Assembly: GCF_003382685.1 (NCBI RefSeq)
Contig: NZ_QLVG01000056.1
Location: forward strand, 1 to 36,801
DNA: 36,801 nucleotides
DNA from: Halorussus litoreus
GTDB lineage: Archaea > Halobacteriota > Halobacteria > Halobacteriales > Haladaptataceae
Reading direction: 5' to 3'
Part shown: piece by piece, positions 8,212-31,554 of the stretch
How positions within the stretch are numbered: position 1 is the first letter of the stretch
Layout of the letters: every line of letters starts with the position of its first letter
The notes under the pieces: generated by a model
What the model was told of the DNA's origin: nothing
What the model saw: only the letters and a program-made list of their open reading frames with translations
Database searches by the model: none
Translations under genes and position numbers: made by a program

Positions 8212-8953
8212 ATGGACAAGGCCGCGCTGGAGCGTCGCCTCTCCCGCGTCGAGGGGTTCGCCGACCCTCGGGTGGAACTCGAACAGTACGCCACACCCGC
8301 CGACCTCGCGGCCCACCTCGTCCACCTCGCGGACCTGCATGGCGACCTCGCCGGCAAGACCGTGGTCGACCTCGGCACCGGAACCGGGATGCTCGCGCTC
8401 GGTGCGGCCTGTCGGGATCCCGCGCGCGTGCTGGCGCTCGACCGCGACCCGGACGCGATGGCGCAGGCTCGCGAGAACGAGCGCGCGGTCGCGGACACCG
8501 GCAAGCGTGAGCGCGGGGGGGGGGGGGGGGGCGGCGGGGGGGGGCCCCCCGGCGGGGTCCGCGGCCACGACCCCGCGCTCGGCCGCGGCCGCAGAGGATT
8601 CCACCGCCGCGACCGCTGTCGACTGGCTACTGGCAGACGCGACTCGCGCGCCGGTCTGCACTCGTCCCTCCGAGACGACCGTCCTGATGAACCCGCCGTT
8701 CGGCGCGCAGTCGGGCAACGAACACGCCGACCGCGCGTTTCTGGCGACCGCGGGCGAGGTCGCCGCAGTCTCGTACTCAATTCACAACGCGGGAAGCGAG
8801 GCGTTCGTCGAATCGTTCGCCCACGACGAGGGCGGCGCGGTGACCCACGCCTTCCGGGCGGCGTTCGACCTGCCGCGGCGGTTCGACCACCAGACCAGCC
8901 AGCGCGAGACGGTCGACGCCGAGGTGTTCCGGATCGAGTGGGATGGGGAGTGA
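8212..8953 (+). pseudogene. METTL5-like rRNA/RNA adenine methyltransferase, frameshifted at a G-run
   Basis: The first frame (8212 to about 8514) encodes MDKAALERRLSRVEGFADP, the YATPADLAAHLV segment and the SAM-binding motif VVDLGTGTGMLALGAA. The second frame (+1) carries WLLADATRAP, the adenine-methylase motif NPPFGAQSGNEHADRAFLA and the C-terminus to the TGA at 8953. This order matches archaeal METTL5-type N6-adenine methyltransferases, usually about 205-215 residues. Between the frames sit 17 G, CGGC, 9 G and 6 C, followed by an Ala/Thr/Ser-rich stretch of about 30 residues that normal relatives lack. As given the gene is broken. A miscounted homopolymer, a slippage-prone contingency tract, or a true pseudogene are all possible; the intact downstream motifs favour the first two. 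Confidence 0.8.
8515..8550 (+). repeat. Homopolymer tract G17-CGGC-G9-C6
   Basis: Seventeen G (8515-8531), then CGGC, nine G (8536-8544) and six C (8545-8550), inside the methyltransferase gene at the frame switch. Such runs are rare even in GC-rich haloarchaeal genes and are prone to polymerase slippage and to base-calling error. Confidence 0.9.
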
Positions 8954-25540: not shown

Positions 25541-26224
25541 GTGCTATCGGTCGAGCTTCACGCCCACTCGTCGCTGTCGTACGACGGTCGGGACGACGTC
25601 GACCTGCTGCTGGAGCAGGCCGCCGCCGTCGGGCTGGACGCGCTGGCGATCACCGACCACGACGAGATCGACGCGAGCCTCGACGCCGCGGCGAAGGCCG
25701 CCGACTACGGGCTCGTCGGGATTCCGGGGATGGAGGTGAGTTCCGCAGCGGGTCACGTGCTCGCGCTGGGCGTGCGCGAGCGGGTCCCCGCGGGGCTGTC
25801 GTTCGTCGAGACGCTCGACCGCATCCGCGAGCAGGGCGGCGTCGCGGTCGTACCCCACCCGTTCCAGAAGTCCCGGAGCGGCGTGATGGCGAAGATCGGC
25901 GAGGAGGAACTCACCGAGGCCGACGCCATCGAGGTGTACAACTCCCGGCTGCTGACCGGCCGGGGCAACCGGAAGGCCCGGCGGTTCGCCGAGCGCCACG
26001 GCCTGCCCCAGACCGCGGGCAGCGACGCCCACATCAGCGAGATGGTCGGACAGGCGGTCACGCTCATCGACGCCGACGAGCCGACCGCCGAGGCGGTGCT
26101 CGACGCCATCCTCGACGGTCGGACCAGCGTCGAGGGCAAGCGCACCCCGTGGCACGTTAGCTTCCGGCAGGCCGCGGGCGGGGCCAAGCGCCGCGTGAAG
26201 AACCGCCTGGCGAGCTTCTGGTGA
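25541..26224 (+). CDS. PHP-domain metal-dependent phosphoesterase
   Basis: A 227-residue PHP protein. Metal-binding motifs: ELHAHSSLSYDG at the N-terminus (HxH), AITDHDEID, GMEVSS, VPHPFQKSRSG and GSDAHISEMVG near the end. PHP domains hydrolyse phosphoesters, such as nucleoside 3',5'-bisphosphate or 5'-nucleotide substrates in the YciV/RnaAM type, and histidinol phosphate in others; the exact substrate is not determined here. The start is taken as GTG at 25541, since the conserved LSVELHAHS begins there and the upstream open frame is AT-rich, promoter-like DNA. Its TGA overlaps the ATG of the next gene by one base, so the two are translationally coupled. Confidence 0.88.
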   Translation: MLSVELHAHSSLSYDGRDDVDLLLEQAAAVGLDALAITDHDEIDASLDAAAKAADYGLVGIPGMEVSSAAGHVLALGVRERVPAGLSFVETLDRIREQGGVAVVPHPFQKSRSGVMAKIGEEELTEADAIEVYNSRLLTGRGNRKARRFAERHGLPQTAGSDAHISEMVGQAVTLIDADEPTAEAVLDAILDGRTSVEGKRTPWHVSFRQAAGGAKRRVKNRLASFW

Positions 26225-27474
26225 TGCCCGACGACGAATCGAAGGAAAGCGACCACTCGCAGGCCGAAAGCGCTGCCAGAATCCGTGGCGTGCCGGTCGA
26301 ACTCGTCGAGCGAGCGGTCGCGGAGGGAAACCCGCTGCCGGGCGCGAGGGCGGACCTACGTCCGGACGAGCGGACTGCTGGCTCGCTCGCGCCCGCAGAC
26401 GCGGGCGCGAGCGAGCCAGCAGTCCGCGGATTCGCCGGGCGGCTTCCCGACGGTCGCCTCGTCCGCGACGTGCTGGGTCGCCAGCCGATCTTCGTGGAGC
26501 GAGGCGAGTCGGCCACGGCAGACGCCAGTTGGTCGTTCTCGCCCCACGACCTCGCCGCCCCCGAATCGCTTCCCGCGGGCCACGTTCTCGCTGTTGGGGA
26601 CTCTGCCGGAGACTCGAACTCCGAACAGCTGCTCTCGCTCCCCGACCCAGACCAGTTCGAGCGCGACGACGAAGCGGTCCAGCGAGTCCGAGATTCCCTC
26701 CGCGCGAGCCTCGACGCGGTCGGCGTTGACGGGCTGGCGGTCGCGTTCTCCGGCGGGGTCGACTCGGCAGTAGTCGCGAGTGCGTTCGACGCGCCCCTCT
26801 ACGTGGTCGGCTTCCCCGACAGCCACGACGTGGCGGCCGCGCGGCGCGCTGCCCGGCTGATGGACCGCGAGGACGACCTGCGGGTCGTGGAACTCGACGC
26901 CAGAGACGTCGAGCGCGCGGTGCCGACGGTCGCCCGTGCGACCGGCCGGACGAACGCGATGGACGTTCAGATCGCGATTCCGCTCTATCTCGCGGCAGAG
27001 CGCGCCGCCGCGGACGGCTTCGACCGGCTCGCCGTGGGACAGGGCGCGGACGAACTGTTCGGCGGGTACGCCAAGGTCGCCCGCGCGCCCGAGGACCCGC
27101 GCGTCGCGGCCGAGACCGTCCGCGGGGCCGCCCGCGAGATGGTCCGGAGCCTGCCCGGCCAGATCGAGCGAGACGTGCTCGCGCTCCGCGACGCCGGGGT
27201 CGAGCCGGTTGCACCGCTGCTCGACGACCGGGTGGTCCGCGCCGCGCTCCGGCTGCCGGGCGACCTGCTGGTCGACTCCCGTGGTGAGCGCAAGGCGGCG
27301 CTCCGGTTGGCGGCCCGCGAGTTCGTCCCCGACCCGGTGGCGTTCCGCGAGAAGAAGGCGGTCCAGTACGGGAGTCTGGTCGCACGCGAACTCGACCGGC
27401 TGGCCCGGCAGGCCGGGTTCAAGCGCCGGATGGACGACCACGTCTCGCAATTCGTCGAATCGCGCGTCGAGTGA
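26224..27474 (+). CDS. Asparagine synthetase-like protein (PP-loop ATPase domain)
   Basis: A 416-residue protein. The C-terminal half is an asparagine-synthase-type domain: PP-loop AFSGGVDSAVVASAF (about 174-188), TNAMDVQIAIPLYLAAE, GQGADELFGGYAKVAR (about 275-290) and PLLDDRVVRAALRLPGDLL. The N-terminal half is a short remnant where a glutaminase domain would be (IRGVPVELVERAVAEGNPLP, VRDVLGRQPIFVERG) without an N-terminal catalytic Cys, so it cannot use glutamine itself. It probably adenylates a carboxylate and joins an amine or ammonia; whether the product is asparagine is uncertain. A 27-bp-stem palindrome is translated within the N-terminal half. It is coupled to the PHP gene by a one-base overlap. 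Confidence 0.85.
   Translation: MPDDESKESDHSQAESAARIRGVPVELVERAVAEGNPLPGARADLRPDERTAGSLAPADAGASEPAVRGFAGRLPDGRLVRDVLGRQPIFVERGESATADASWSFSPHDLAAPESLPAGHVLAVGDSAGDSNSEQLLSLPDPDQFERDDEAVQRVRDSLRASLDAVGVDGLAVAFSGGVDSAVVASAFDAPLYVVGFPDSHDVAAARRAARLMDREDDLRVVELDARDVERAVPTVARATGRTNAMDVQIAIPLYLAAERAAADGFDRLAVGQGADELFGGYAKVARAPEDPRVAAETVRGAAREMVRSLPGQIERDVLALRDAGVEPVAPLLDDRVVRAALRLPGDLLVDSRGERKAALRLAAREFVPDPVAFREKKAVQYGSLVARELDRLARQAGFKRRMDDHVSQFVESRVE
26370..26427. repeat. 27-bp-stem perfect palindrome inside a coding gene
   Basis: Bases 26370-26396 are the exact reverse complement of 26401-26427, around the 4-nt loop AGAC. The arm begins GCGGACTGCTGGCTCGCTCG and ends CGCCCGC. It is in frame, encoding a surface-like Ala/Ser/Pro/Glu stretch (AGSLAPADAGASEPAV). 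A smaller hairpin CGGAC-CTAC-GTCCG precedes it at 26351-26364. A palindrome of this length cannot be explained by protein coding constraints. Confidence 0.95.
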
Positions 27475-27540
27475 GGGTCGAGGTGATGGGAGGCCGCGCT
27501 CGATTATCCTATCCACACCGCGCTCCATTACGCAAACCCA

Positions 27541-27704
27541 CCGGCGCACGCTGCGCGGCGCTCTCGTGCGCCGCGCAAAGCGTGCGAGGGACGAGGACTG
27601 CAGGTCGGAGCAACGCGGAGACCGAGGACCGCAGGAGGCTGGGGAGGTCTGCGGCCCGCGGTCGCGGTGCGTTCACGCCGAGGCGCAAGCAATAGATGGC
27701 TTCC
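27541..27704 (+). repeat. Family-1 structured dispersed repeat, copy E
   Basis: Outer stem CGCACGC (27545-27551) with GCGTGCG (27580-27586), inner GCGCGGCGC (27553-27561) with GCGCCGCGC (27568-27576), loop TCTCGT and 3' bulge AAA. The loop is identical to copy A while both stems differ by paired changes. GAGGGACGAG, GCAGGAGGCTGGGGAGG, GCGGTGCG and the right end TCACGCCGAGGCGCAAGCAA with ATAGATGGCTTC follow. It lies between the convergent asparagine-synthetase-like and NUDIX genes; the rest of 27475-27785 shows nothing further. Confidence 0.88.
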
Positions 27705-31287: not shown

Positions 31288-31510
31288 GAAAGCCCTCGGC
31301 GCGGTCACGCGAGCGAAGCGAGTGTGACGTTGTCTGCGTGAGCGCCGCGAACGCAGGTTCGACGGACGGGTCCGTCGGCGTCGGAGCTTGTCTCCGACAG
31401 AACTCGCGGTCGTTCAGCGGGATATGTGGCGCGCGCAGTTCTGCGCGCGCCACATAGGGCCGCGCTGAAACGACCAGGATAAACGCGAGCGCCCTCGCCC
31501 TTTCAGTCCG
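31288..31510 (+). repeat. Family-2 hairpin-chain repeat, copy 3
   Basis: GAAAG (31288-31292) pairs with CTTTC (31500-31504) and GGCGC (31298-31302) with GCGCC (31489-31493), replacing the CGCCCGCTCG/CGAGCGGGCG stem of other copies while keeping pairing. Inside are perfect hairpins CGACGGAC-GG-GTCCGTCG, GTCGGAG-CTTGT-CTCCGAC and a 16-bp stem (31423-31438 with 31441-31456, loop TT), the last enclosed by CAGCG...CGCTG as in copy 2. It fills the convergent gap between gatA and the flavin oxidoreductase; no gene is seen there. Confidence 0.8.
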
Positions 31511-31554
31511 CCATAAGGCCGGTCAGCTCACCGAGCACAGCCGTAGAACCACAC

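Follow-up and report, generated by a model that had tools for sequence, protein, structure and literature searches.

Long perfect palindromes in the coding DNA of Halorussus and their probable origin by fold-back template switching

Palindromes within genes in other organisms and in Halorussus

Rickettsia palindromic elements (RPEs) are translated in frame inside genes and belong to homologous multi-copy families. The palindromes described here, found in the haloarchaeal genus Halorussus, are translated in genes as well, but they are mutually unrelated in sequence. In Escherichia coli, quasipalindrome hotspots are turned into perfect palindromes by hairpin-templated correction. These corrections are small and, unlike what we observe in Halorussus, do not amount to long perfect palindromes spread over the whole genome. 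The evidence for template switching, well established in E. coli as in yeast, has come from scattered events and reporters.

In genes of Saccharomyces cerevisiae, the homogenisation of arms and the inversion of the spacer are the marks of repeated template switching (PMC8604942). Halorussus resembles yeast in the passage from imperfect to perfect arms, the clustering of changes, the inversion of the spacer, the recurrence at the same site, and the resulting amino acid changes. However, the yeast arms are mostly 7-11 bp long, with 30 genes significant, whereas those of Halorussus, an archaeon, reach 29 bp and number up to 28 palindromes (arms of at least 13 bp) per 100 kb, with sister species near zero. 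The mitochondria of Nematomorpha offer another parallel, with perfect inverted repeats in protein genes, gain and loss between species, concerted arms, and an excess in one clade (PMC6649704). We also found perfect inverted repeats inside genes to be enriched in one clade, but they are on cellular chromosomes and have 13-29 bp, whereas those of Nematomorpha are mitochondrial and reach 284 bp. Moreover, Halorussus, unlike Nematomorpha, provides comparisons of orthologues before and after the event, which show the conversion of a single arm. A study on RNA hairpins reports that template switching can create and maintain their perfect stems (PMC8794818); it concerns RNA, whereas the palindromes of Halorussus are mostly in protein-coding DNA. 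Finally, a 2026 survey of 118,019 genomes reported perfect inverted repeats to be mainly intergenic, in a text that is without any "halo-" word (PMC13155455). Our search for literature on palindromes in Halorussus, or on template switching in haloarchaea or other archaea, returned no relevant report. The mechanism is already known; what is new, relative to the literature searched, is such a density in prokaryotic coding DNA and the switching from one species to another.

A 27-bp palindrome within an asparagine-synthase-like gene

The window, i.e., the whole stretch of 36,801 nt analysed here, contains on the forward strand an asparagine-synthase-like open reading frame of 417 aa (26221-27474, stop included, starting at GTG 26221 or ATG 26224). 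It matches PF00733 (E 1.1e-27), the matches to PF00733 and TIGR01536 being partial. Within it, at 26370-26427, we find an inverted repeat whose two 27-nt arms (26370-26396 and 26401-26427, forward strand) are 100% complementary and separated by a 4-nt loop, AGAC (26397-26400, same strand). The left arm carries the codons RTAGSLAPA and the right arm those leading to PAVR; the whole is translated in frame as RTAGSLAPADAGASEPAVR and the reading frame is open throughout. The first-pass annotation had described a perfect 27-bp palindrome with a 4-nt loop, in frame in an asparagine-synthetase-like gene, and the coordinates, the complementarity and the PF00733 match all agree with this description. 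The number of such repeats expected by chance (arms of at least 27, loops of 0-4) is 1.6e-10 for the whole window given its base composition, and the single strand has a folding energy of -57.5 kcal/mol (z -9.4). No Rfam model matches the window and there is no tRNA in it. The second, small hairpin that had been noticed just before the palindrome is also there (CGGAC-CTAC-GTCCG, 26351-26364, forward strand), but it is unremarkable, since arms of 5 bp around a 4-nt loop are ordinary in such G+C-rich DNA. On the same strand, the motif GCGGAC at 26350-26355 repeats exactly the 6 nt with which the left arm begins (26370-26375), and is a possible return microhomology of a template switch.

We found orthologues of this gene in 17 of the 18 Halorussus genomes, the remaining one (G015, 62% complete) giving a weak match only. 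Their alignment, a check proposed with the first description of the palindrome, revealed that most lack the extra loop. Their junction reads ..SGT-RGFAG.., against ..PGARADLRPDERTAGSLAPADAGASEPAV-RGFAG.. in the window gene, and the left arm is absent from them. The sister species G005, whose protein is ~77% identical to that of the window gene, has the junction PGAETDDVSDARPDDAPAVRGFAG; the window linker is longer than this one by a net 10 codons, in frame. The PAVR codons are CCG GCG GTT CGG in G005 and CCA GCA GTC CGC in the last 12 nt of the right arm (26416-26427, forward strand; CCAGCAGTCCGC / CCGGCGGTTCGG). Since only their third positions differ, we take the right arm to be the probable ancestral one, and its reverse complement on the left would be the newer copy, a direction read from 12 nt of homology and from an ancestor visible only through a sister species of ~77% identity. 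The orthologue of G012 has at the same junction a different, independent palindrome of its own, with 15-bp arms (CGCGGATTCCGGCGC-TC-GCGCCGGAATCCGCG). Elsewhere in the gene, it has a palindrome with 29-bp arms and no loop, the longest arm that we have seen, whose right arm spans AV..VRDAL, a stretch that can be aligned, while its left arm does not resemble the relatives. On the 3' side of the window gene, the interval 27540-27660 is a G+C-rich intergenic block with inverted and repeat-like sequence.

Abundance and relatedness of palindromes across species

The first-pass annotation knew of no haloarchaeal counterpart to this palindrome, but the genome that carries it and several sister species turned out to hold many. 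In 400 kb of the genome, which include regions picked owing to prior hits, perfect hairpins with arms of 14-26 are common, whereas Markov sequences gave none above 13. Ten regions picked without prior hits contained 7 palindromes (arms of at least 13, loops of at most 8) in 200 kb, hence a total of the order of 100 palindromes or more genome-wide. The distribution of arm lengths is bimodal, with 1.1 palindromes per 100 kb for arms of 11-12, 1.1 for 13-15, 3.0 for 16-19, and 2.7 for at least 20. The search for further palindromes that had been recommended returned many perfect ones, with arms of 13-27 bp and loops mostly of 0-4 nt.

The density of palindromes with arms of at least 13 varies widely between species. 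It is 27.9 per 100 kb in G012, 25.0 in G001, and 24.0 in G017. It drops to 8.3 in G011, 6.9 in the genome of the window, and 6.2 in both G003 and G004, and G002 and G016 have none in 200 kb each. Haladaptatus species range from 0 to 7.5 per 100 kb. For comparison, 1.38 Mb of other haloarchaea contained none, matching the Markov null. The palindrome-poor species also match this null at long arms, and the rich ones add to it a separate mode, with arms of 13-29. Among 80 named loci, palindromes are confined to Halorussus and Haladaptatus, one adapter artefact aside. The latter, from the assembly of Natrinema limicola JCM 13563 (L140:14143), has 23 bp and an N in its loop; it resembles the Nextera transposon-end (adapter) sequence and is presumably an assembly artefact. 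Rich and poor species are adjacent (G012 with G008, G017 with G006) in a tree of six loci from the vicinity of the window, not all of them available for every genome. Nor does G+C content account for density: G010, with ~69% G+C, has none. Pairs of palindromes ~50-250 bp apart are frequent (10/11, 12/13 and 16/17 in G001, 39/40 in G012), which suggests local hotspots. We also observed long homopolymer tracts of G or C, of ~17 or more, at 8509-8580 of the window and at L055:7182-7245, which are uncommon in haloarchaeal DNA or possibly reflect assembly trouble.

To characterise the palindromes, we compared 116 of them from seven species. Their loops have 0-4 nt in 112 cases, and their arms are richer in G+C than their flanks (80% vs 69%). 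Among the 59 palindromes located around the orthologues of the window gene, 41 are in reading frames whose homologues align to the left and right of the palindrome. Only 4 of the 6670 pairs have a 13-mer in common: one of these comes from a distinct family of intergenic repeats, two represent orthologous sites, and the last is within the genome of the window. When the window arms were searched against their own genome, as had been advised, they proved to be unique: there were only weak matches, the best being other palindromes that have a common G+C-rich 10-mer. A dispersed intergenic palindromic repeat, probably a family of its own, is found at 31290-31520 of the window (core 31423-31456), near 1500 in L006, L007 and L013, and at L059:14133. 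Its core is TATGTGGCGCGCGCAG-TT-CTGCGCGCGCCACATA and its ends ..GAAAGCCC.. and ..CCTTTCAGT.., with loops AA or TT, in either orientation.

Origin of the palindromes and control of their rate

Comparisons between relatives revealed two forms of palindrome: gap-free conversions inside conserved proteins and expanded linkers, the form of the window gene. Gap-free palindromes often have one arm that is nearly that of the relatives and one that is changed. For example, palindrome 11 differs from three relatives at 1/16 positions in the left arm and 9/16 in the right. The arm that was copied can be either one relative to the coding strand, and an ancestral arm facing a new reverse complement was found at several sites. 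Over 20 gap-free cases, divergence is 0.46 in the faster arm and 0.27 in matched controls (p 1.6e-6), a difference partly biased by the conditioning on finding a perfect palindrome. Because of this conditioning, one site in the sister pair G004/G014 is stronger evidence. There, 6 changes are clustered in the 28 nt of the inverted repeat, whereas 80 nt of flank have a single one; pairing goes from 9/14 to 14/14, and the loop is AA in one species and TT in the other.

Another informative site is in menD (best NCBIfam match TIGR00173, a fragment below the cut-off), which we read in some of the 18 Halorussus genomes. A palindrome occupies the same codons in four species, with a constant outer arm, CCGACGCGA, and an inner part that is different in all four. 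Yet the two arms match every time (CGATTTGC/GCAAATCG, CGAGTCGC/GCGACTCG, CGACTCGC/GCGAGTCG, CGATTCGC/GCGAATCG), a covariation whose control is weak, with 4 sequences and a score reached by 10/500 shuffles. Three species have the loop TCG, and the fourth has CGA, the reverse complement. The left arm, GACCCGACGCGACTCGC, is kept without its partner in G002 and G016, and the palindrome is missing in G014, the sister of G004. Its presence in several species could be due to age, not recurrence. Arm homogenisation and spacer inversion are seen in menD and in G004/G014, and they are not seen in the window palindrome.

We think it likely that fold-back template switching, at a rate specific to the lineage, made the window palindrome and the others. 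During DNA synthesis, the growing 3' end would fold back on itself with a loop of ~4 nt (an intrastrand, hairpin-templated switch), copy its own fresh strand, and then rejoin the normal template, with the result that the reverse complement of one side would take the place of the other side or lengthen it. The template in the window gene would have been the right arm, with its PAVR-GFAG junction, and the copy the left arm with the RTAGSLAPA codons. Repeated switching would hold the arms identical afterwards, and the same process would operate genome-wide at very different rates among Halorussus species. Hairpin repair by template switching was one of two origins proposed in the first-pass annotation, and it gains good support from the one-sided conversion of arms, their matched changes, the inversion of loops, and the before/after sister pair.

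Among the alternatives, the one that survives best, though we regard it as improbable, is that the hairpins play a role at the DNA or RNA level (supercoil relief, protein binding, mRNA stability), their arms being kept matched by selection. This would account for the matched changes at common sites and for the strong folding, but close relatives have no hairpin at the same sites, two species have none at all in 200 kb, the hairpins are scattered over unrelated genes, mostly in coding sequence or variable linkers, and their arms alter amino acids. Somewhat less probable still is the writing of palindromes by a dedicated lineage-specific enzyme or a mobile replicon, instead of template-switch errors of the ordinary kind that have become more frequent. 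The on/off pattern among close species and the narrow range of arms and loops would fit such a writer. Yet we have no candidate for it: reverse transcriptase is absent, the genes for DinB, MutS, NucS and the Rad50-like protein are in all near-complete genomes, and ExoVII is patchy with no clear association. We see very little room for the other proposed origin, the in-frame insertion of a selfish palindromic element of the RPE, MITE or REP kind. The window gene does have an in-frame insertion relative to most orthologues, and its genome has many palindromes. However, the window arms are unique and the palindromes have no sequence in common, so that we find neither a multi-copy family with a common sequence nor a whole element facing an empty site; the window right arm keeps the ancestral PAVR, one arm is ancestral host sequence, and several palindromes lie gap-free inside conserved codons, where nothing was inserted. 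A sequencing or assembly artefact, with fold-back chimeras from library preparation, can practically be dismissed, as the 75-contig draft state of the window genome is countered by the same phenomenon in genomes of one to five contigs (G004, G012, G017, G003), by reading frames that remain open, and by sites common to independently sequenced species.

Under fold-back template switching, a heritable difference in repair or replication would set the rate. A bolder and rather doubtful version is that sister Halorussus species might differ by the gain or loss of a heritable factor, which would switch on a distinct mutator that writes perfect 13-29-bp hairpins across the coding genome and supplies new protein linkers, be it a dedicated enzyme or a missing suppressor of hairpins. 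Some species, unlike those close to them, appear to have about a hundred or more long, perfect and mostly translated palindromes in a cellular genome. This contrast between rich and poor species is a natural experiment on the suppressors of fold-back synthesis in archaea. Template switching would also change several residues of a protein at once, a kind of change that ordinary substitution models mistake for selection.

None of the genes that we examined follows the density of palindromes. Profile searches found no reverse transcriptase in the 18 Halorussus genomes, and no exonuclease of the RNase_T (ExoI) type above threshold in the 28 genomes of the family. MutS and NucS are in all 18 Halorussus genomes, DinB is in 17 of them, missing only from the incomplete G015, and the Rad50-like AAA_23 is present in all 28 family genomes; none of them distinguishes rich from poor species. 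In G027, from the third genus of the family, there is no Rad50-like AAA_23 match of ~900 aa, only one of the size of SMC. The Rad50 zinc hook, sought with a model too weak for a verdict, gave no distinction between the two groups either. ExoVII was also rejected: among Halorussus genomes it is present in G002, G005, G007, G008 and G017 only, i.e., in four low-density species and a rich one, whereas other species, rich and poor alike, lack it. In these five genomes, the gene of its large subunit is on minor contigs, with near-identical scores in three of them, and these contigs are perhaps plasmids.
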